Assembly: GCA_021777365.1 (NCBI GenBank)
Contig: JAJYDP010000127.1
Location: 1-10,391, forward strand
Reading direction: 5' to 3'
Length of the DNA: 10,391 nucleotides
DNA from: Chloroflexota bacterium
Lineage (GTDB): Bacteria; Chloroflexota; Limnocylindria; Limnocylindrales; CSP1-4
Position 1 is the stretch's first letter; every line of letters starts with the position of its first letter. Made by a program: the position numbers and the translations under genes. A model generated the notes under the pieces. That model ran no database searches, had not been told where the DNA came from, and saw only the letters and a list, made by a program, of their open reading frames with translations. Below, one piece after another: positions 1,437 through 9,621 of the stretch.

Positions 1437-2492
1437 ATGCGGCTGCACCGCATGCTGGCCCTGGGAGCGTCCGCGCTGGTGCTGGCGAGCGCCTGCGGGA
1501 CGGGCGGGGGGACGAGCCCGGCGCCCACCGGCGCGTCCGCCGCCCCGGGACCGAGCCAGGCCGTCGCCACCGCGGCGCCGGCATCCACGAGCCCGGCCAC
1601 GGCGCCGTCCGCGGCAGCCCCGTCGGCTGCCCCGGCCGCCGACACCATCGCCAGCCGCCTGGTCCTGGGCGGGCCGCCCGAATGTCCGCAGCGGCCCTTC
1701 TGCCTGATCGGGCTCCAGAAGGTCTACGGGCTGACGTTCAAGTCGTTCCTGCCGCTCGACGCGGGCGGTCCCCTGACGGTGGCCGCCCTGCAGACCGGCC
1801 GGATCGGGGTCGGGCTCCTGTTCACCTCGGACCCGAGCATCCAGGTCGACGGGTTCGTGCTCCTCAACGACGACCGGCACCTGCAGGCCTCGGACAACAT
1901 CGCGCCGGTCATCCGCACCTCGGTGCTGAAGGCGCACCCCGGCATCGCGACGCTCCTCGACACGATCTCGGCCCGGCTCACCCAGGCCGCGCTCACCTCG
2001 CTCAACAAGCAGGTGACGGTGGACAAGACCGATCCCGCCGACGCCGCCCGCGCCTGGCTGCAGCAGCAGGGATTCGTGCCCTCGGGTGCCTCGAACCAGG
2101 GCACCGTGGTGGTGGGTTCCACCAACTTCTCCGAGCAGCTGGTGCTCGCCGAGCTGTATGCACAGCAGCTCGAGGCGAACGGCTACACCGTCGTGCGCAA
2201 GTTCAACCTGGGCAGCCGCGAGGTCGTGCAGCCGGCGATCCAGTCGGGCCAGATCGACCTCTACCCCGAGTACCTCGCCTCGCTCACCGAGTACCTCGAC
2301 AAGGGCGCGGGGCTGGCCACCGGCGATCCGGCGAAGACCGCGAAGGTGCTCGCCGGGCTCCTGGCGCCGAAGGGCGAGACCGTGCTCGCCTACGCCCCCG
2401 CCACCGACGAGAACGGCTTCGCCGTGACGAGACAGACGGCGCAGCAGTACCACCTGGTCAACATCAGCGACCTCGCCCGGCCTGCGCCGTAG
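1437..2492 (+). CDS. ABC transporter substrate-binding lipoprotein (OpuAC/ProX type) with circularly permuted halves
   Basis: Extracytoplasmic solute-binding protein, 351 residues, that should deliver quaternary amines such as glycine betaine or choline to the preceding permeases. The ATG follows an AGGGGGG ribosome site at 1424-1430. Residues 1-20 are a lipoprotein signal with the likely lipidated cysteine at C20 (LASAC), then an Ala/Pro/Ser/Thr-rich linker to about residue 70. Residues 75-213 match what is normally the C-terminal half of this family: LGGPPEC at 77-83, YGL at 97-99, FLPLDAGGPLT at 104-114, DNIAPVIR at 153-160. Residues 223-351 match what is normally the N-terminal half: VVVGSTNFSEQ at 224-234, NLGS at 257-260, DLYPEY at 274-279, and a terminal ISDLA at 343-347. 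In ordinary relatives ISDLA runs directly into the LGGPPEC segment, so the order is swapped with both halves complete. Family assignment is firm; permutation is read from motif order. Confidence 0.85.
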   Translation: MRLHRMLALGASALVLASACGTGGGTSPAPTGASAAPGPSQAVATAAPASTSPATAPSAAAPSAAPAADTIASRLVLGGPPECPQRPFCLIGLQKVYGLTFKSFLPLDAGGPLTVAALQTGRIGVGLLFTSDPSIQVDGFVLLNDDRHLQASDNIAPVIRTSVLKAHPGIATLLDTISARLTQAALTSLNKQVTVDKTDPADAARAWLQQQGFVPSGASNQGTVVVGSTNFSEQLVLAELYAQQLEANGYTVVRKFNLGSREVVQPAIQSGQIDLYPEYLASLTEYLDKGAGLATGDPAKTAKVLAGLLAPKGETVLAYAPATDENGFAVTRQTAQQYHLVNISDLARPAP

Positions 2493-2670: not shown

Positions 2671-2676
2671 CGCGGT

Positions 2677-2690
2677 GCCGCGATCGCGGC
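2677..2690. promoter_or_regulatory. 14-bp perfect palindrome upstream of the F420 cluster
   Basis: GCCGCGATCGCGGC reads identically on both strands and ends 44 bp before the first start codon of the island. Its size and placement would suit a dimeric (for example TetR- or GntR-type) repressor, but GC-rich palindromes also arise by chance in this base composition and no adjacent regulator gene is present. Confidence 0.25.
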
Positions 2691-2734
2691 TCCGTGCCGG
2701 GGGAACGCGCTCCAGCGCCGTCCGGGAGGAGAGC

Positions 2735-3166
2735 ATGTCCGACGCCGCCCCAAGCGCACCGATCGAGCCGTCCGTCCGCCGCTTCCTCGAGGCCCCCGGC
2801 CACTTCGCCGTGGTCGCGACGCTCGACCCGGACGGCTCCGTCCACCACGCCGTGGCCTGGTACCTGCTGCGCGACGGGACGCTCGTGCTGAACTCGCGCG
2901 AAGGGCGGCGCTGGCCAGGCAACCTGCTGCGCGACCCGCGCGTGAGCGTGGCGGTCGAGGACGGGTATCGATGGGTCACGCTGCGGGGCACGGTCGAGGT
3001 GATCGACGACCAGGCCCGCGCACAGGCCGACATCGCCGAGATGGCCCGGCGGTACCACGCCGACGACCCGGCCCACGCGGAGGAACAGGTCCGGATGTTC
3101 CGGGAGCAGCGGCGGGTCACGTTCGAGCTGGCACCGGCCCGCGTGGCCGCATCCGTGGAGGACTGA
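2735..3166 (+). CDS. PPOX-class F420-dependent protein (Rv1155-like split beta-barrel)
   Basis: Predicted F420-binding flavin-reductase-fold protein, 143 residues, of the pyridoxamine-phosphate-oxidase-like superfamily (F420 branch, Rv1155/TIGR03618 type). The sequence shows the family pattern: FLEAPGHFAVVATLDPDG at 17-34, WYLLRDGTLVLNS at 42-54, the N-terminal EGR and NLLRDPRVSV of the cofactor-contacting segment (56-72), the RGTVEVIDD strand-turn at 84-92, and a closing FELAPARV at 130-137. Relatives often carry Lys where this protein has Trp60. The ATG is preceded by GGAGGA at 2725-2730. The frame is also open upstream, with an ATG at 2579, but the extra 52 residues are Arg-rich and unlike the family, so I reject that start. 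The next gene begins 5 bp downstream, and the F420 biosynthesis genes behind it support F420 over FMN. The substrate cannot be told. Confidence 0.85.
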   Translation: MSDAAPSAPIEPSVRRFLEAPGHFAVVATLDPDGSVHHAVAWYLLRDGTLVLNSREGRRWPGNLLRDPRVSVAVEDGYRWVTLRGTVEVIDDQARAQADIAEMARRYHADDPAHAEEQVRMFREQRRVTFELAPARVAASVED

Positions 3167-3171
3167 ACGGA

Positions 3172-4161
3172 ATGGCAGCATCCGGCATCGGCTATGCGGC
3201 GATGCTCGAGCAGTTCGCGCCGCGCGACCTGGTCGACTGGTCGGTGGCCGCGGAGGCCGCCGGGTTCAGCGGCATCATGGCCGCCGACCACGTGCAGCCG
3301 TGGGTCCCGCGCCAGGGAAACGCGGCGTTCGTCTGGTCGTACATGACCGCGGCGGCGGAGCACACCGTGGGCGACATCGGGCCGGGCGTGGTCTGCCCGT
3401 CGTTCCGGATGCACCCGGCGGTCGTGGCCCAGGCGGCGGCGACCATGGCAGCCATGTACCCGGACCGCTTCTGGCTGGGCCTGGGCTCCGGAGAAGCCCT
3501 CAACGAGCACATGGTGGCGGCCTACTGGCCGGAGATCCCGGAACGGATCGCCCGGATGTTCGAGGCGATCGAGATCATCCAGAAGCTCTTCAGCGGCAGG
3601 GACGTCAAGCACCGCGGCGAGTACTTCCGGATGGAAACGGTGCGCCTCTGGACCATGCCGGCGACGCCGCCCCCGATCTACGTCGCCACGGCGGGGCCGG
3701 TGACCGCGGAGAAGACCGGACGCCTGTGCGACGGAATCATCACCGTGGGCGCCGCGGACGAGAAGATCGACGCCGTCTTCGCGCGCTTCGACAAGGGCGC
3801 GCGGGAGGCGGGCAAGGACCCGGCCACCATGCCCCGCATCCTGCAGCTCCACCTCTCCTGGGCGCCGACGCAACCGGAGGCCGAACGCAACGCCCTGGAG
3901 GAGTGGCCCAACGGCGGCATGAAGTTCGCCAAGCAGGACATCCGCACACCGCAGGTCTTCGAGGCGATCGCGGGCCTCGTGCGCATCGACGATTTCAAGG
4001 GCCGCATGCTGATCTCCGACGACCTGGAGGTCCACCGCCGCGAGATCCAGCGCTACCTCGACATGGGCTTCACGAAGATCTACCTCCACAACGTGGGCCG
4101 CAACCAGCGCGAGTGGATCGAGGCCTTCGGCCGCGAGGTGCTGCCGAGGCTGACGGCATGA
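3172..4161 (+). CDS. F420-dependent LLM-family oxidoreductase, glucose-6-phosphate dehydrogenase-like (TIGR03557 type)
   Basis: TIM-barrel luciferase-like oxidoreductase, 329 residues, closest in pattern to F420-dependent glucose-6-phosphate dehydrogenase (FGD1, 336 residues). Visible family motifs are [14 protein letters not shown] (7-20), ADHVQPW (38-44), HPAVVAQA (81-88) and [11 protein letters not shown] (102-112). The residues matching the catalytic set of mycobacterial FGD1 are in place: H40, W44 and E108 (FGD1 Glu109). A lysine also sits at position 198, where FGD1 has a phosphate-binding Lys, though the alignment there is less certain. The usual reaction is hydride transfer from substrate to F420, giving F420H2 for other enzymes. 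The start has GGAGGA at 3157-3162, inside the end of the previous gene. Its end overlaps cofD by 4 bp. The subfamily also includes enzymes acting on other substrates, so glucose-6-phosphate is plausible, not proven. Confidence 0.85.
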
Positions 4162-5180
4162 TGGAACCGCACCGGGATCCCGCCATGGCCGCCGCGCCGG
4201 GGGCATCGACCCGCGTGGTCGTGCTGGCCGGCGGCGTCGGGGGCGCCCGGCTGTCCCACGGGGTGGCGCGCCTCCCCGGCGTCGAGCTGACCGTCGTCGT
4301 CAACACGGGGGACGATCTCGAGCTCCACGGCCTGGCCATCTCCCCGGACGTCGACACCGTCCTCTACACGCTGGCGGGGGTGGCGAACCCGGAGACCGGC
4401 TGGGGCCTGCGCGACGAGACCTGGTCGGCGCACGGGATGCTGGCCCGCTACGGCGCCCCCACGTGGTTCCGCCTGGGTGACCGCGACCTCGCGACGCAGC
4501 TGGTGCGGACTCGGCGGTTCCGCGACGGGGCGACGCCCACCGACGTGACCGGCGAGCTGGCGCAGGCGCTCGGCGTGCGGGCGCGGATCCTTCCGATGTC
4601 CGACCGTCCCGTGCGCACCCACGTGCGGACGCACGGCGGATGGCTCGAGTTCCAGGAGTGGTTCGTGGCCCGCGGGCATGCCGACGACGTCCTGGAGGTC
4701 CGCTTCGACGGTGTCGAGGACGCGCGTCCGACCGAGCGGGTGCTCACCTCGATCGCGGCGGCGGACGCCATCCTCGTGGCCCCCTCCAACCCCTTCGTGA
4801 GCATCGGGACCATCCTGGCACTCCCCGGCATGGTGGCGGCGCTGCTTGCGGCCGCGGCACCCGTGGTGGCGGTCAGCCCGATCGTCGCCGGCGCCGCGCT
4901 CAAGGGCCCCGCCGACCGGATGTTCGAGACGCTGGGCGGCGAGTCGAGCGCCCTGGGGGTCGCACGCCACTACGCCGGCGCGTTCCCCGGGCTCGTGGAT
5001 GGGCTCGTGATCGACGGGGCGGATCGCGACCAGGCGGCGGCGATCGGGCAGCTGGGCATCCGGACGCTGGTCACGTCGGCGATCATGCGCGACGAGGACG
5101 ACCGGGTCCGGCTGGCCGGCGAGGTACTCGGCTTCGCGACGGAGCTCCGCCGCGACGAGCAGCGACGGAACGAGGGCTGA
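4158..5180 (+). CDS. cofD: 2-phospho-L-lactate / phosphoenolpyruvate transferase (F420 biosynthesis, CofD/FbiA)
   Basis: Transfers the phospho-lactyl or phospho-enolpyruvyl group from its GDP adduct to the deazaflavin FO, giving (dehydro)F420-0. The 340 residues carry the whole CofD signature: AGGVGGAR at 24-31, VVNTGDD at 47-53, [14 protein letters not shown] at 61-74, RLGDRDLAT at 105-113, PMSDRPVRT at 146-154, WLEFQEWFV at 162-170, PSNPFVSIG at 209-217, SPIVAG at 240-245 and KGPAD at 249-253. The chosen ATG at 4158 overlaps the upstream stop as ATGA and has GAGG 8 nt before it (4146-4149). A second in-frame ATG follows at once and a third lies at 4185, giving a start nearer the usual family length. 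Whether the donor derives from lactate, PEP or another acid cannot be read from these motifs. Function is secure. Confidence 0.95.
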
Positions 5181-6044
5181 ATGCGCATCGGGATCGGACT
5201 GCCCACCGTCATCCCCGGCGTCGCCGGGGATGACGTCCTGGAGTGGGCGCGCCGGGCCGAGGGGCGCAGCTTCGCCACGCTCGGGGTGATCGACCGGATC
5301 GCCTACCCCAACTACGAGCCTCTCACCGCGCTCGCCGCCGTCGCGGGCGCCACCCGGACCATCGGTCTGATGACCGACGTACTGCTGGGACCGACCCGTG
5401 ACCCGGTGCTGCTGGCGAAGCAGGCGGCCAGCCTCGCCCTCCTCTCGGGCGGACGCCTCACGCTGGGCCTGGGCGTGGGGGCCCGGCCGGACGACTTCGC
5501 CGTCACGGGTCGCGACTTCCACGCGCGGGGCCGCGACTGGGATGTCGCCCTCGCGACGATGGACCGGGTGTGGCGCGGCGACCCGCCGCCCGGGACCACC
5601 CGGACCAGCGCCCCGGGAGCCGGGTCTGGCGGCCGACCCCGGCTCCTCTTCGGGGGCACGTCCGACGCCACGTTCCGGCGCACGGTGCGCTGGGGCGCCG
5701 GCTGGACGGCGAGCAGCAGCGCGGGCGACGCACTGCCCGGGCTCATCGAGCGCGTCCGTTCGGCCTGGCACGAGGCAGGGCGGCCCGGCGATCCGTGGAT
5801 CTCGGTGCTCACCTACTTCGGTGCCGCCGGCGACCCGGACGACCACCGGCCCGCCGCCTTCCTCGCCGACTACTACGGGCCCCAGCGAGGCCCGGCCCTG
5901 GCGGCGACGCTGGCGCGGACGCCCCAGGCGATGCGCGCGATGGTCCGCCGCTGCGAGGACCTGGGGGCGGACGAGGTGGTCGCGTTCCCGACGCTGCCCG
6001 GGGTCGAGCAGGTCGACCGGCTCGCGGACGCGGTGCTCCGCTAG
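5181..6044 (+). CDS. LLM-class (F420-dependent) oxidoreductase inserted between cofD and cofC
   Basis: Luciferase-like TIM-barrel oxidoreductase, 287 residues, probably using F420. The start MRIGIGLPT forms the first barrel strand. AKQAASLALLSGGRLTLGLG at 79-98, GVGARPDDF at 98-106 and FGGTSDATFRR at 157-167 (the usual phosphate-contacting loop) identify the family. The position of the catalytic His in FGD-like members is not obviously conserved: the segment reads VIDRIAYPNYEP (36-47). The ATG follows the cofD stop with no gap and has GAGGG at 5172-5176. Its place inside the cof operon suggests a reaction tied to F420 formation or first use. I cannot assign a substrate. It is shorter than the other two LLM genes here and carries a Pro/Gly/Ser-rich loop at 135-152. 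Confidence 0.8.
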   Translation: MRIGIGLPTVIPGVAGDDVLEWARRAEGRSFATLGVIDRIAYPNYEPLTALAAVAGATRTIGLMTDVLLGPTRDPVLLAKQAASLALLSGGRLTLGLGVGARPDDFAVTGRDFHARGRDWDVALATMDRVWRGDPPPGTTRTSAPGAGSGGRPRLLFGGTSDATFRRTVRWGAGWTASSSAGDALPGLIERVRSAWHEAGRPGDPWISVLTYFGAAGDPDDHRPAAFLADYYGPQRGPALAATLARTPQAMRAMVRRCEDLGADEVVAFPTLPGVEQVDRLADAVLR

Positions 6045-6070
6045 GGATCGACGGGGCGTGGGCGGCGTGC

Positions 6071-6076
6071 GAGGAA
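6071..6076 (+). promoter_or_regulatory. Ribosome-binding site that favours the GTG 6085 start of cofC
   Basis: GAGGAA ends 8 nt before GTG 6085. The alternative GTG at 6211, which would remove the unusual N-terminal tail, has no purine-rich site before it; GTGs at 6058 and 6067 have weaker G-runs. Confidence 0.45.
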
Positions 6077-6084
6077 CCGGCGAC

Positions 6085-6870
6085 GTGCGTGGCCATGGGG
6101 ATGCCGGCAGCCCGGGCGACCGGGCAGCGGCGCGCGGCGCGGGCGCCCATGCGGGCGCCGCCGGCGAGGCGGGCGGCACGGCACGGGCGGACCTGGCGCG
6201 GCTCCACGTCGTGATCCCGCTCCGCTCGCTGGAGGGCGGGAAGACCCGCCTCGGGGCCGCGCTCGACGCGGAGGAGCGCGAGGAGCTGATCGTCGGGATG
6301 CTGCGCCACGTGCTGGCGGTCACGCTGGCCTGGGGGGGCGCGGGGGACGTGCTGGTGGTGAGCGCGGACCCGGCGGTCCTGGCGATCGCCGCGCGCGACG
6401 GGGCACGGACGCTGCGACAGCGCACCGGCGACCTGAACGCCGGGATCCGCCTGGGCCGCGACGACGTCGTCGCGGCCGGCGCGACGGCCCTGCTGGTCCT
6501 TCCCGCCGACCTGCCGCTGCTCGAGGCGGCATCGCTGGAGCGCCTGCGCGATGCCTCGGACGCGGCGCTCGCCGCGGGATCCGGGCGGGCCCTCGTGGCG
6601 ATCGTGCCCGCCGATGCCCGCAGCGGCACCAACGCGCTCCTGCTGGCCCCGCCCGACGCCATCGAGCCGGCGTTCGGCCCCGACAGCCTGCGGGCCCACC
6701 TGGAGGCCGCACGGGCGGCCGACGCCACGGTGCAGCTGGTGGAGGACCCGGCCCTGGGCTTCGACCTGGACACGCCCGCCGACGTCGAGCGCCTCGACCC
6801 GGCGCGCCTGGCGGCCCTGCAGGCGATCGGCGCGGCGGCCGGAGCCGCGGGCGCCGGGGTGGATCCATGA
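6085..6870 (+). CDS. cofC: 2-phospho-L-lactate (or PEP) guanylyltransferase (F420 biosynthesis, CofC/FbiD)
   Basis: Uses GTP to activate the phospho-three-carbon acid as a GDP adduct, the donor for CofD. With the GTG start at 6085 it has 261 residues. The catalytic nucleotidyltransferase-like domain starts near residue 41: VVIPLRSLEGGKTRL at 42-56, VVSADPAVL at 91-99, GDLNAGI at 115-121, LVLPADLPLL at 137-146, SGTNALLL at 180-187, AFGPDSLRAHLEAA at 196-209 and GFDLDTPADVERL at 225-237. These are the family hallmarks. The first 40 residues are a Gly/Ala/Arg-rich tail absent from typical members of about 200-230 residues, so the true start may be GTG 6211, which lacks a ribosome site. The gene follows the LLM gene by 40 bp. 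The function call is secure; the N-terminus is not. Confidence 0.92.
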   Translation: MRGHGDAGSPGDRAAARGAGAHAGAAGEAGGTARADLARLHVVIPLRSLEGGKTRLGAALDAEEREELIVGMLRHVLAVTLAWGGAGDVLVVSADPAVLAIAARDGARTLRQRTGDLNAGIRLGRDDVVAAGATALLVLPADLPLLEAASLERLRDASDAALAAGSGRALVAIVPADARSGTNALLLAPPDAIEPAFGPDSLRAHLEAARAADATVQLVEDPALGFDLDTPADVERLDPARLAALQAIGAAAGAAGAGVDP

Positions 6871-6923
6871 GCACGCCGCGCGCATCCCGGGCCGGTTCCG
6901 GCCCCACCGGAGGAGCACCATGA
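6867..6923 (+). other. 18-codon reading frame bridging cofC and cofE with ATGA overlaps at both ends
   Basis: ATG 6867 overlaps the cofC TGA, and the frame ends in a TGA that overlaps the cofE ATG (6920). The 18 residues (Ser/Gly/Pro/Arg-rich) show no homology I recognise. Only a GGGGTGG stretch precedes it. It may be a translational coupling device or chance; the ten bases around both ATGs (CCATGAGCAC at 6865 and 6918) are identical, hinting at a small duplication of the start region. Confidence 0.15.
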
Positions 6924-7771
6924 GCACCACGGGCCCGGAGCATCGGGCCGAGCCCCCGGCCGCCGGCGGCCCGCCGCCCGGGGCGGCCCCGGGGGAAGGC
7001 GCCGGGCGGATCACCGCGATCCCGCTGCCTCCCCTCCCCGACGTGCATCCGGGCGACGACCTGGCCCGCATGATCGCCGATGCGCTCCGCGCGGGTGCCT
7101 CGTCCGATCCCGAGTTCGCGCCGCGCGCCGGCGACGTGCTGGTGGTGACCCAGAAGGTCGTCTCGAAGGCGGAGGGGCGCCTCGTGGACCTGCGCACCGT
7201 GACGCCGAGGCCGGAGGCGGAGGCGTTCGCCCGGCGCTGGGGCCGCGACCCGCGCCAGGTGGAGGTGGTGCTCCGGGAGTCGGCCCGCGTGGTGCGCATG
7301 GAACGCGGCGTCATCATCGCGCGGACCCGGCAGGGCTACGTCTGCGCGAACGCCGGGGTGGACGCGTCGAACACGGATGCCGCCGACGTGGTGACGCTCC
7401 TCCCCGAGGATCCCGACGCCTCCGCGGCGGCCATCCGCGATCGGCTCCGAGAGCTCCTCGGGGTCGAGGTGCCGGTCATCGTCGCGGACTCCTTCGGCCG
7501 GCCCTGGCGCTGGGGGATCACCGACGTGGCGCTGGGCGTCTCCGGCTTCGCACCGCTCGCCGACTTCCGCGGACTGGAGGACACCACGGGGCGGGCGATG
7601 CACGCCACCGTGGTCGCGGTCGCGGACGAGATCTGCGCCGCGGCCGAGCTGGCCTCTGGCAAGACGTCGCGTCGGCCCGTGGTCCTGGTGCGCGGCGCGC
7701 CGCTGCCGGCAGGGGACGGCAGCATCGTCCGCGACGTGGTGATGCCGGAGGCGTACGACCTCTTCGGGTAG
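6920..7771 (+). CDS. cofE: Coenzyme F420-0:L-glutamate ligase (CofE), stand-alone
   Basis: GTP-dependent ligase that adds one or more gamma-linked glutamates to F420-0. The 283 residues include GDVLVVTQKVVSKAEG at 71-86, RQGYVCANAGVDASN at 137-151, ADSFGRPWRWGITDVALG at 189-206, LADFRGLEDTTGR at 213-225, VAVADEICAAAEL at 232-244 and SGKTSRRPVVLVRG at 246-259, all standard CofE blocks. The protein ends shortly after, so the C-terminal FMN-binding nitroreductase-like domain of mycobacterial FbiB is absent. The ATG is set by AGGAG at 6911-6915. The first 30 residues are a Pro/Gly/Ala-rich tail before the usual CofE N-terminus (ITAIPLPPLPDV, 31-42). It follows cofC by 49 bp and is the last gene of the tight island; the next gap is 147 bp. 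Confidence 0.95.
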   Translation: MSTTGPEHRAEPPAAGGPPPGAAPGEGAGRITAIPLPPLPDVHPGDDLARMIADALRAGASSDPEFAPRAGDVLVVTQKVVSKAEGRLVDLRTVTPRPEAEAFARRWGRDPRQVEVVLRESARVVRMERGVIIARTRQGYVCANAGVDASNTDAADVVTLLPEDPDASAAAIRDRLRELLGVEVPVIVADSFGRPWRWGITDVALGVSGFAPLADFRGLEDTTGRAMHATVVAVADEICAAAELASGKTSRRPVVLVRGAPLPAGDGSIVRDVVMPEAYDLFG

Positions 7772-7813
7772 GGCGCGGCCCGTGGACCGGCTCGCGGGCG
7801 GTCGGGTCCCGGA

Positions 7814-7833
7814 CCACGGCAGGGATCCCGTGG
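7814..7833 (+). terminator. Hairpin in the cofE downstream gap (weak terminator candidate)
   Basis: CCACGG (7814-7819) pairs with CCGTGG (7828-7833) around an 8-nt loop, 42 nt after the cofE stop. A second inverted repeat, GGCCGT/ACGGCC (7832-7837 and 7848-7853), overlaps it. Neither is followed by T residues. The position fits an end to the F420 operon, the sequence only loosely. Confidence 0.25.
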
Positions 7834-7906
7834 CCGTCGGGCGGCGCACGGCCGTCACTCGGACATGCCGCCGACGCGCCGCCTGCGCGGATCGTCGTGT
7901 CCCGGG

Positions 7907-7912
7907 TACTCT
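7907..7912 (+). promoter_or_regulatory. -10-like TACTCT box placed for leaderless transcription of the Rv1855c-type gene
   Basis: TACTCT fits TANNNT and ends 6 nt before ATG 7919, so a start of transcription 6-7 nt downstream would coincide with the start codon. No Shine-Dalgarno sequence precedes that ATG, as expected for a leaderless mRNA. No clear -35 is seen. Confidence 0.4.
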
Positions 7913-7918
7913 CGTGCC

Positions 7919-8821
7919 ATGAAGATCGGACTGCAGATCCCCAGCTACACCTGGCCGGGCGGCGACGCCGCCATCGGCCCCACCTTCGCTCGCATCCTCC
8001 GCGAGGCCGACGAGGTGGGGTTCGACTCCATCTGGGTGATGGACCACTTCTTCCAGATCCCCAGCGTGGGCGGCGCCGAGGAGCCCATGCTCGAGGGATG
8101 GTCGGCCCTCGCCTTCGCGGCGGCCGTCACGAAGCGCGCCGAGCTCGGCCTGATGGTGGGCGGCGTCCACTACCGCCAGGCCGGGCTCTGGGCCAAGCTC
8201 GCCACCACGCTCGACATCCTGTCCGAGGGTCGCGCCTGGCTGGGAATCGGCGCGGCCTGGAACCAGCAGGAATCCGAGGGGCTCGGCTTCCCGTTCCCGC
8301 CGCTCGGCCAGCGCTTCGAGATGCTGGAGGAGACGCTCAGGGTCGTGCACGAGATGTGGAGCGGCGAGCGCGGCTCGGAGGCGGCGTTCCACGGCCGCCA
8401 CTACCACATGGACCGGCTGCTGAACAGCCCGCAGGCGATCCGCCGGCCACACCCGCCGGTGATGATCGGGGGCGGGGGCGAGCAGAAGACCCTGCGCCTC
8501 GTGGCCCGGTACGGCGACGCCACGAACATCTTCGGCGGACCGGACAACCTGCGCCACAAGTACGCGGTCCTGCGCGAGCGGTGCGAGGAGATCGGGCGGC
8601 CGTTCGACCAGATCGAGCGGTCGAACCTGAACGCGTTCCGCGTGAGCCGCGACGGCGGCGGCGAGACGACCTCGCCTGCCGAGATGGTCGACCGGATCGG
8701 CTCCTGGCGTGACGCCGGCTCGCAGCACGCGATCTTCTCGATCCGCAACATCCCGGAACCGGGGGTCCTGGAGCTGGTCGGCCGCGACGTCATCCCGCAG
8801 GTGCACGGGATGGACCGCTAG
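7919..8821 (+). CDS. F420-dependent LLM oxidoreductase, Rv1855c type (TIGR03560)
   Basis: Luciferase-like oxidoreductase of 300 residues, matching the Rv1855c group of probable F420-dependent enzymes. Diagnostic blocks are SIWVMDHFFQIP at 37-48, PMLEGWSAL at 56-64, LGLMVGGVHYR at 76-86, GRAWLGIGAAWNQQES at 104-119, GFPFPPLGQRFEMLEETL at 123-140, LNSPQ at 168-172 and PPVMIGGGGEQKTLRLVARYGD at 179-200, the last holding the cofactor-phosphate loop. MKIGLQIPSY from ATG 7919 is the first barrel strand. An in-frame ATG at 7865 would add 18 residues (Arg/Cys-rich) without family support, so I chose 7919. It sits 147 bp after cofE, probably as its own transcription unit, and so is a user rather than a maker of F420. 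The physiological substrate of this group is unknown to me. Confidence 0.87.
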   Translation: MKIGLQIPSYTWPGGDAAIGPTFARILREADEVGFDSIWVMDHFFQIPSVGGAEEPMLEGWSALAFAAAVTKRAELGLMVGGVHYRQAGLWAKLATTLDILSEGRAWLGIGAAWNQQESEGLGFPFPPLGQRFEMLEETLRVVHEMWSGERGSEAAFHGRHYHMDRLLNSPQAIRRPHPPVMIGGGGEQKTLRLVARYGDATNIFGGPDNLRHKYAVLRERCEEIGRPFDQIERSNLNAFRVSRDGGGETTSPAEMVDRIGSWRDAGSQHAIFSIRNIPEPGVLELVGRDVIPQVHGMDR

Positions 8822-8862: not shown

Positions 8863-8880
8863 TGCCAGCGAGGAGTGCAG

Positions 8881-9621
8881 ATGCCGGATTCCGACCAGCA
8901 GCGCACGTCCGCTCCCGGCGCGGGATCGCCGGGCCCCCGGATCGTGGCCTCCGTCCTCCCGGCCGACCTCTCCCGTCTCGGCGAGGAAGTGGCCGCGCTC
9001 GAGGCCGCCGGCGTGGACTGGATCCAGTGGGATGTCATGGACGCCTGCTTCGTACCGAACCTCACGTTCGGCCCGGACGTCATCGCCGCGGCCCGGCGGC
9101 ACACGTCGCTGCCGTTCGAGGCGCAGCTGATGGTGGCGAACCCGGATCTGCTGATCGGTCCCTGCGTGGAGGCCGGCTGCGAACGGGTGATCGTGCACGC
9201 CGAGTCGACGCACAACCTGCACCGCAGCCTGATGCGCGTCGCGGAGTCCGGGGCCCGGGCCGGCGTCGCAGTCAACCCCGCCACGCCGTTCGAGGCGGTG
9301 GTGAACGTCCTCGACCTGGTCGACCTGGTGCTCGTCATGACGGTCAACCCGGGCTTCGGCGGGCAGGCGTACCTGGCGAGCATGGAGCCCAAGCTGCGCG
9401 TCGCGCGCTCGGCGATCGAGGCGACGGGCCGCCCGACCTGGCTCGAGGTGGACGGCGGGATCGCGCCCGACACGATCTCCACGTGCGCCGCTGCCGGCGC
9501 CGACGTCTTCGTCACCGGCAGCACGCTCTTCCACGATCCGCAGGGTCCCGACCACGCGGTCCGCGAGCTGCGCCGGCTCGCCGCCGGCGGACCGCCGGGC
9601 GGCAGCGCCGGGATCCGGTGA
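8881..9621 (+). CDS. rpe: Ribulose-phosphate 3-epimerase with variant metal-ligand positions
   Basis: TIM-barrel enzyme of 246 residues interconverting ribulose-5-phosphate and xylulose-5-phosphate in the pentose phosphate pathway. AGGAG at 8871-8875 sets the ATG; a GTG two codons earlier lies inside that site. Family blocks are IVASVLPADLSRLGEEV (21-37), WDVMDACFVPNLTFGP (50-65), LMVANPD (83-89), NPATPFEAV (132-140), MTVNPGFGGQ (153-162) and EVDGGI (189-194) with VTGSTLF (211-217). The catalytic aspartates are present (D51, D191). Two positions stand out. The usual metal-binding His in W-I-H-x-D is Gln49, and the His of the usual H-L-M-V is Gln82. Family membership is clear, but metal use or even the exact sugar-phosphate substrate may differ. 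An 18-residue Ser/Pro/Gly-rich tail precedes the first strand. Confidence 0.9.
   Translation: MPDSDQQRTSAPGAGSPGPRIVASVLPADLSRLGEEVAALEAAGVDWIQWDVMDACFVPNLTFGPDVIAAARRHTSLPFEAQLMVANPDLLIGPCVEAGCERVIVHAESTHNLHRSLMRVAESGARAGVAVNPATPFEAVVNVLDLVDLVLVMTVNPGFGGQAYLASMEPKLRVARSAIEATGRPTWLEVDGGIAPDTISTCAAAGADVFVTGSTLFHDPQGPDHAVRELRRLAAGGPPGGSAGIR

Follow-up and report, generated by a model that had tools for sequence, protein, structure and literature searches.

The stretch of DNA analysed here, referred to throughout as the window, comprises 10,391 nucleotides of contig JAJYDP010000127.1 (assembly GCA_021777365.1) from a Chloroflexota bacterium of the lineage Limnocylindria; Limnocylindrales; CSP1-4. 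The gene under study, an open reading frame (ORF) at 1437-2492 on the forward strand, starts with ATG and encodes a solute-binding protein of 351 amino acids in which the two halves of the ordinary OpuAC/ProX-type chain stand in exchanged order. Its features are as follows.

1437-2492, + strand: circularly permuted solute-binding lipoprotein in the CP-A order described below (Pfam, PDB alignments, half-profiles)
1437-1496, + strand: lipoprotein signal peptide ending LASAC, residues 1-20, with lipobox Cys20 (assigned by eye)
1497-1658, + strand: low-complexity Ala/Ser/Pro tether, residues 21-74 (54 residues)
1659-2084, + strand: segment homologous to the second half of ordinary members, residues 75-216
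2085-2102, + strand: linker from ancestral C-terminus to ancestral N-terminus, residues 217-222
2103-2489, + strand: segment homologous to the first half of ordinary members, residues 223-351

When the protein was compared with Pfam using hmmscan, PF04069 (OpuAC) was the sole family recovered (172.7 bits against a cut-off of 21.2). The match falls in two stretches, the best of which places profile positions 2-112 on residues 223-350, and the profile order is not kept along the chain, the halves being exchanged. A phmmer search of the PDB returned 27 sequences at E<=0.01, nearly all named as osmoprotectant, choline or ergothioneine binding proteins or as sensors derived from them. In all three alignments inspected, the later part of the protein lies on the N-terminal half of the solved chain and residues 71/74-214 on its C-terminal half; against 5teu_A (E 1.8e-25), residues 211-348 align with 12-148 and residues 74-214 with 155-300. 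Each half searched singly matched largely the same PDB chains. In this arrangement, CP-A, the second half is followed by a linker and then the first half, the chain being cut after the ISDLA helix and before the LVLGGPPEC strand.

The original prediction, made from the sequence without database searches, had proposed just such a circular permutation, and it was borne out. Every block it named was located where it had been placed (LGGPPEC, YGL, DAGGPLT, DNIAPVIR and WLQQ in the leading segment; VVVGSTNFSEQ, NLGS, DLYPEY and ISDLA in the trailing one), each occurring once, with the old ends bridged by about 6-9 residues, and the alignments that it suggested, to PF04069 and to solved relatives, proved not to be collinear. 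No leftover half-gene was found either: none of the other ORFs of the window (>=100 amino acids) matched either half at E<=1e-5 in searches with half-profiles, here called h1 for the first half (NFxEQ...SDLA) and h2 for the second (LGGPPEC...end), derived from a hand-picked set of 16 permuted and 8 ordinary sequences and used to read the order in all fetched proteins. An intact type II binding-protein fold with a circularly permuted chain best explains the data as a whole, with a probability of about 0.9. Chance is excluded, since the E-values are low and the order is conserved. The swapped order is observed computationally, as are its conservation, its operon slot, the unchanged pocket and core columns, a model whose fold is largely confident, and the several origins with three cuts set out below.

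The order recurs well beyond this contig. In a second assembly of the species (G000, contig C24), the gene has the same order and its DNA is 99.7% identical to the window, which extends from the end of C24 into the start of contig C111; given the 0.3% difference and the contig break, the two contigs appear to be separate assembly products. Among 61 genomes of relatives searched (own included), 26 gave a match at 1e-10, and ten genomes of the window's family carry its order, in one case (G002) with the gene split across two contigs, while the ordinary order is found in others of the family such as G012, G019 and G028. Across the class, a match at E<=1e-60 was obtained in 12/131 genomes. Homologues of the window protein, among the matches listed and with its own cluster included, read h2-h1 in 119 of 120 cases and h2-h1-h2 in the remaining one. 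The nearest ordinary relatives, again among the matches listed, are 48-72% identical per half, and many occupy the same operon slot; because both halves share largely the same nearest ordinary relatives, a single gene was rearranged.

Scanning genome contigs with the permuted alignment yielded 251 confirmed loci. Of the best 80, which were kept, 17 read h2-h1 (L003-L019; by title, 14 from Chloroflexi/Chloroflexota/Limnocylindrales and three from Actinomycetota/Actinobacteria), 56 are ordinary, six carry a second permuted order, CP-B, and one a third, CP-C. The ordinary set includes some loci truncated at contig ends as well as L023, in which an ordinary-order gene (L023:5779-6641) is split into h1 and h2 in overlapping frames, probably by a frameshift or sequencing error. 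In the CP-B loci (L020, L030, L035, L042, L043 and L055, from Acidimicrobiia and other Actinomycetota), the chain runs h2[29-140]-h1-h2[1-28], with the cut in L020 between YGLTF and EFVPLD; 7 of 79 genomes of its order (own included) match at 45-100% identity. The CP-C locus, L080 from Demequina, runs h2[64-140]-h1-h2[1-62] and is cut between SSDGALA and QLVVLEDD. CP-C matches were found in 43 of 47 Demequina-family genomes (own included), almost full length in 38, and all 120 L080 homologues among the matches listed have this order. One further sequence, L134, first labelled CP-A, was reassigned by hand to CP-B on the basis of its C-terminal tail, read by eye.

The lobes of EgtUC are delimited as D1 (232-331 and 445-503) and D2 (341-432), with a linker strand at 332-340 (PMC9732360, from the sections drawn on here and below). 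Counted by hand onto EgtUC, cut A falls near 363-368 (partly extrapolated), B at 394-397 and C at 424-429. All three therefore lie inside D2, the lobe opposite the original chain ends, and none is in a linker strand, C being just ahead of one. The suggestion that the new termini opened at the hinge was thus not upheld, the CP-A ends being some 23-28 residues beyond the 332-340 strand by the same partly extrapolated mapping.

The number of independent events was addressed with IQ-TREE trees in which the halves were aligned in ordinary order, one quick tree of 59 rows and two careful ones of 58 and 67 rows. Near-duplicates of fetched loci were left out of trees and counts, and two three-half proteins, P0029 and P0135, were excluded from trees and column counts. 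A gene at L015 that forms a long branch in the 59-row tree was excluded from the later trees; at that locus the permuted gene (1739-2773) is directly followed by this strongly diverged ordinary-order binding-protein gene (2674-3738). The arrangement label requires seven changes on the 67-row tree (eight before L134 was relabelled). CP-A proteins of Chloroflexota group with ordinary Chloroflexota proteins, and those of Actinomycetota are nested in ordinary Actinomycetota. Constraining the CP-A proteins to a single clade lowers the log-likelihood by 120 units (58 rows) or 127 (67 rows), and the approximately unbiased (AU) test rejects a single origin of CP-A (p 1.5e-69 and 4.3e-5, respectively). 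A single CP-B clade was not rejected (p 0.149 and 0.139), the best tree suggesting three changes, nor was a single clade of Actinomycetota CP-A (p 0.101 and 0.062). The ordinary order is taken as ancestral on the grounds of the chosen ordinary-order outgroup and the solved relatives. Since the AU test rejects one CP-A origin, at least four permutations are needed within the subfamily, namely CP-A twice, CP-B once and CP-C once.

The swap probably came about when the gene was duplicated in tandem at its own locus and then lost the outer halves while retaining its signal peptide; the ancestral ends would thereby be joined through a short linker and new ends opened in lobe D2. The bridges between old ends have median lengths of 7 (A), 10 (B) and 8 (C) residues. 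In the Actinomycetota CP-A protein P0122, EPVASQ precedes the h2 strand (..EPVASQ-LGGPPEC) and SDLAEPAS stands at the C-terminal end, where the joint of ordinary P0139 reads SDLAPVAGE-LTLGGPPEC and that of ordinary members SDLAPVAGE/Q-LGGPPEC. Both new ends of P0122 thus retain pieces of the old joint, which fits the model of duplication and trimming (PMC3320104, in the portion cited). The alternative, that the gene was split into two half-genes later fused in reverse order, or was cut and pasted, is unlikely yet the strongest of the competing accounts. In its favour, no tandem or three-half intermediate beyond question came to light. It is opposed by the joint remnants at both new ends in Actinomycetota CP-A and around 'TF' in CP-B, and by the lack of free half-genes in the fetched loci, the split L023 having the look of a frameshift. 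P0135, which reads h1-h2-h1, also speaks against it, albeit possibly as a mosaic. In pieces of 50 residues, P0029 (h2-h1-h2) has its closest matches among permuted proteins (often P0122; 92-98% from residue 51) until about residue 200-220 and thereafter in the ordinary P0121/P0123 (98-100%), whereas P0135 is nearest to the ordinary P0139/P0232 to about residue 280 and then mostly to permuted proteins. As mosaic-like, single database sequences in which fusion, recombination and chimera are indistinguishable, neither was used as proof of a duplication intermediate. Adjacent ordinary and permuted genes were considered as a source of such mosaics and set aside, the two lying on different contigs in G115 and G127 (and, for CP-B, in G062 and G063). 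Tandem duplication and trimming is the route preferred here.

By sequence, the closest known proteins are OsmF/YehZ, EgtUC, A. fulgidus ProX (AfProX) and B. subtilis OpuBC and OpuCC, which belong to PF04069 subcluster F-III (PMC9732360), and both halves of the window protein show kinship to this Tyr-cage type; it is no OsmF equivalog, scoring 114 bits with NF049931 against a cut-off of 400. The OsmF/EgtUC group shares with it the kind of operon, the Asn floor and an aromatic at the EgtUC F293 position, but has the ordinary order and a four-aromatic cage where the window protein has an Asp and two Phe. Natural permutation of binding proteins, for which the original prediction had supposed precedents, is indeed on record. 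It was noted among glycine betaine binding proteins by CPSARST in 2008 (PMC2395249, excerpt), and B. subtilis OpuAC (2B4L), likewise lipid-anchored (PMC2861598, excerpt), has the same permutation with the same cut. T. pallidum TpMglB-2 (proposed type Ic/cluster Bc) is another natural, lipid-anchored permutation, for which tethering was suggested by its authors as a possible reason; it differs in its type I (cluster B) sugar-binding fold and in its breakpoint, and no series of cut points is described in the part of that paper cited (PMC4990184). The breakpoint flagged earlier as deserving a look is accordingly real as a swap and, OpuAC having the same cut, not new as such.

Might the window protein then simply belong with B. 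subtilis OpuAC, in a subfamily whose permutation is already known, so that one ancient event would account for both? In favour of this, its order and cut position are identical to those of OpuAC, which in structure comparison matches it far better than all others. OpuAC belongs, however, to another subfamily with a three-tryptophan prism (PMC2861598), which is impossible with the single tryptophan, W207, of the window protein, and it is the L. lactis OpuA domain rather than OsmF that stands closest to OpuAC among solved unpermuted proteins. Furthermore, 2b4l is absent both from the 27 PDB matches of the window protein and from the 27 found at 1e-5 with the A1 profile, in which ordinary OsmF, EgtUC, AfProX and OpuCC do appear, and the window protein shares 60-66% identity per half with relatives of ordinary order. 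Membership is thus ruled out by sequence and very improbable overall. With OpuAC best by structure yet the sequence kin of ordinary order, a known topology has been reached again independently, and OpuAC represents a further permutation outside the four or more counted above. Among the titles and abstract beginnings of the open-access matches listed, no report was met of permuted OsmF/OpuC-type members, nor of the repeated use of one cut, nor of the two further cuts; within that literature, it is the OsmF/OpuC-type permuted series, rather than permutation itself, that is the new part.

Even less probable is decay or loss of function of the permuted gene, a reading for which the odd order alone speaks. 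Permuted forms are spread through clades, CP-C being near-universal and largely full length in the Demequina family as described, and signal peptide and operon are intact. L16, A19 and C20 are invariant across 22 permuted homologues. In the predicted model of the window protein, the fold is mostly confident, and the predicted local distance difference test (pLDDT) score is below 50 nearly everywhere in residues 1-63. The N-terminal signal peptide and the low-complexity tether identify the protein as a lipoprotein. Pocket and core columns are likewise conserved. With residue roles taken from the relevant sections on EgtUC (PMC9732360), the alignment pairs F293 with Y279, N339 with N326, Y341 with F328, Y419 with F129, Y443 with D153 and K242 with S228, so that three aromatics and the Asn stand where EgtUC has four aromatics and an Asn floor, with Asp at the fourth position. 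Counting ordinary, CP-A, CP-B and CP-C proteins in turn, Tyr279 is kept in 140/143, 174/175, 5/6 and 130/130, Asn326 in 139/143, 174/175, 6/6 and 130/130, and Arg86, which may match AfProX R149 (a residue named in the cited part of PMC10087775), in 137/143, 175/175, 6/6 and 130/130; Phe328 is more variable (117/143, 172/175, 2/6 and 118/130). Most pocket columns are thus independent of the order of the halves and, as they are the same in all orders, the rearranged chain rebuilds the same pocket, though without the full Tyr cage.

Asp or Glu occupies the EgtUC Y443 position (AfProX Y214 by numbering; residue 153 here) nearly throughout the subfamily, both orders alike (141/143 ordinary, 175/175 CP-A, 6/6 CP-B and 130/130 CP-C), which hints, at the level of sequence, at a ligand other than plain betaine; the label 'glycine betaine binding' is a matter of annotation rather than of evidence. 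Least credible of all is an artefact of assembly or annotation joining two tandem binding-protein genes in error, a possibility that the original prediction had raised itself and that the metagenome-assembled relatives and the database mosaic P0029 might favour, in view of the same order in the second assembly, the ten family genomes and nearly all listed homologues, the CP-C order in named Demequina isolates and the lack of a second copy beside the gene in the window.

The gene also occupies a defined operon slot, immediately downstream of two permease genes in the window.

1-634, + strand: ATP-binding cassette (ABC) permease 1 (BPD_transp_1), 5' end cut by the window edge (full gene L099:6442-7104)
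638-1357, + strand: ABC permease 2 (BPD_transp_1; Pfam)

In G000, the order is ATPase (L099:5113-6435), permease, permease, binding protein. The ATPase carries ABC_tran and CBS domains (CBS 26.2 against 24) and scores 316.6 bits with TIGR01186 (ProV), just below the cut-off of 326.6; a ProV-like ATPase with CBS and two BPD permeases is the gene set of an OpuC/OsmF-type ABC importer. Among 33 hand-picked loci, the same four-gene order was found with permuted genes of Chloroflexota and Actinomycetota at ten (L003, L004, L006-L008, L010, L012 and L017-L019) and with ordinary genes at five (L022, L024, L102, L103 and, on the other strand, L100), so the permuted gene fills the ordinary gene's slot. 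Its product is best read as the substrate-binding lipoprotein of such an importer, and would close on a small, probably cationic solute and hand it to the permeases as its ordinary relatives do. In five of the six CP-B loci first found (all save L055), the ATPase gene is divergent, on the strand opposite to permease-permease-binding protein, and the nearest ATPase match of L080 is likewise on the opposite strand; the CP-A and ordinary loci examined that have an ATPase differ in this. After the transporter, the window holds an F420 block (2735-8821) in which genes for F420-dependent PPOX and LLM oxidoreductases are interleaved with coenzyme F420 synthesis genes (cofD 4161-5180, cofC within 6043-6870, and cofE 6920-7771, its start hand-chosen), followed by rpe (8875-9621) and a thioredoxin-reductase-like gene from 9663.

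Because the cuts fall in D2, away from the original ends, the anchor would move to the opposite lobe; the lipid would then hold D2 rather than D1, a longer tether compensating. With lipobox positions taken by regular expression and not by a signal-peptide program, the median distance from the lipobox Cys to the fold is 40 residues in CP-A (n=176), 27.5 in CP-B (n=12) and 33 in CP-C (n=128), against 16 in ordinary proteins (n=146). CP-C proteins carry two extra cysteines (C53 and C270 in L080; homologues P0240-P0359), the first at the new N-terminus, the second where h1 and h2 used to meet. Both are present in 128 of 130 CP-C proteins, the second alone in two, and 0/143 ordinary proteins have them at the matching places; together they probably form a disulfide that holds the new end in place. 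In structure comparison, the CP-C model (mean pLDDT 79.4) superposes on OpuAC in residues 50-268 and on ordinary proteins in roughly 138-336, no solved structure among the 50 matches listed spanning the whole CP-C fold.

Taken together, it is tentatively proposed, at slightly less than even odds, that the subfamily underwent a minimum of four permutations and perhaps seven, located in three loops of the lobe without the original ends, that selection repeatedly moved the anchor from D1 to D2 with a longer tether, and that the CP-C lineage fixed its topology with an extra disulfide of its own. Several points weigh against the interpretation as a whole. The rows in the tether comparison are interrelated and some ordinary tethers are also long; within Actinomycetota alone, the medians are 26 for CP-A and 17 for ordinary proteins, and among the fetched loci the CP-A median is only 24. 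The Chloroflexota CP-A clade is modestly supported (93/66, 58 rows) and unsettled around L022 in the 67-row tree, and the placement of CP-C shifted among the three trees. The three-half P0029 and P0135, which would be the expected intermediates, look like mosaics of ordinary and permuted genes and leave the duplication route unproven. Three of the four cage positions (D153, F328 and F129) differ from EgtUC, and the pocket accordingly gives no support to glycine betaine as the ligand. Nor is the operon universal, four ordinary genes (L046, L106, L107 and L115) having no permease or ATPase match in the stretch examined.

Natural circular permutations are usually encountered as single, ancient events. 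The present subfamily is a replicated series, with one cut reached more than once and two others besides, and is of greater interest as such than a single case would be. The series makes testable how permutations originate in genomes, and whether shifting the chain ends and the lipid anchor between lobes alters transport. It also carries a caution, in that domain annotation (PF04069, 'glycine betaine SBP') conceals topology, and the cuts themselves are natural split points for sensor engineering.
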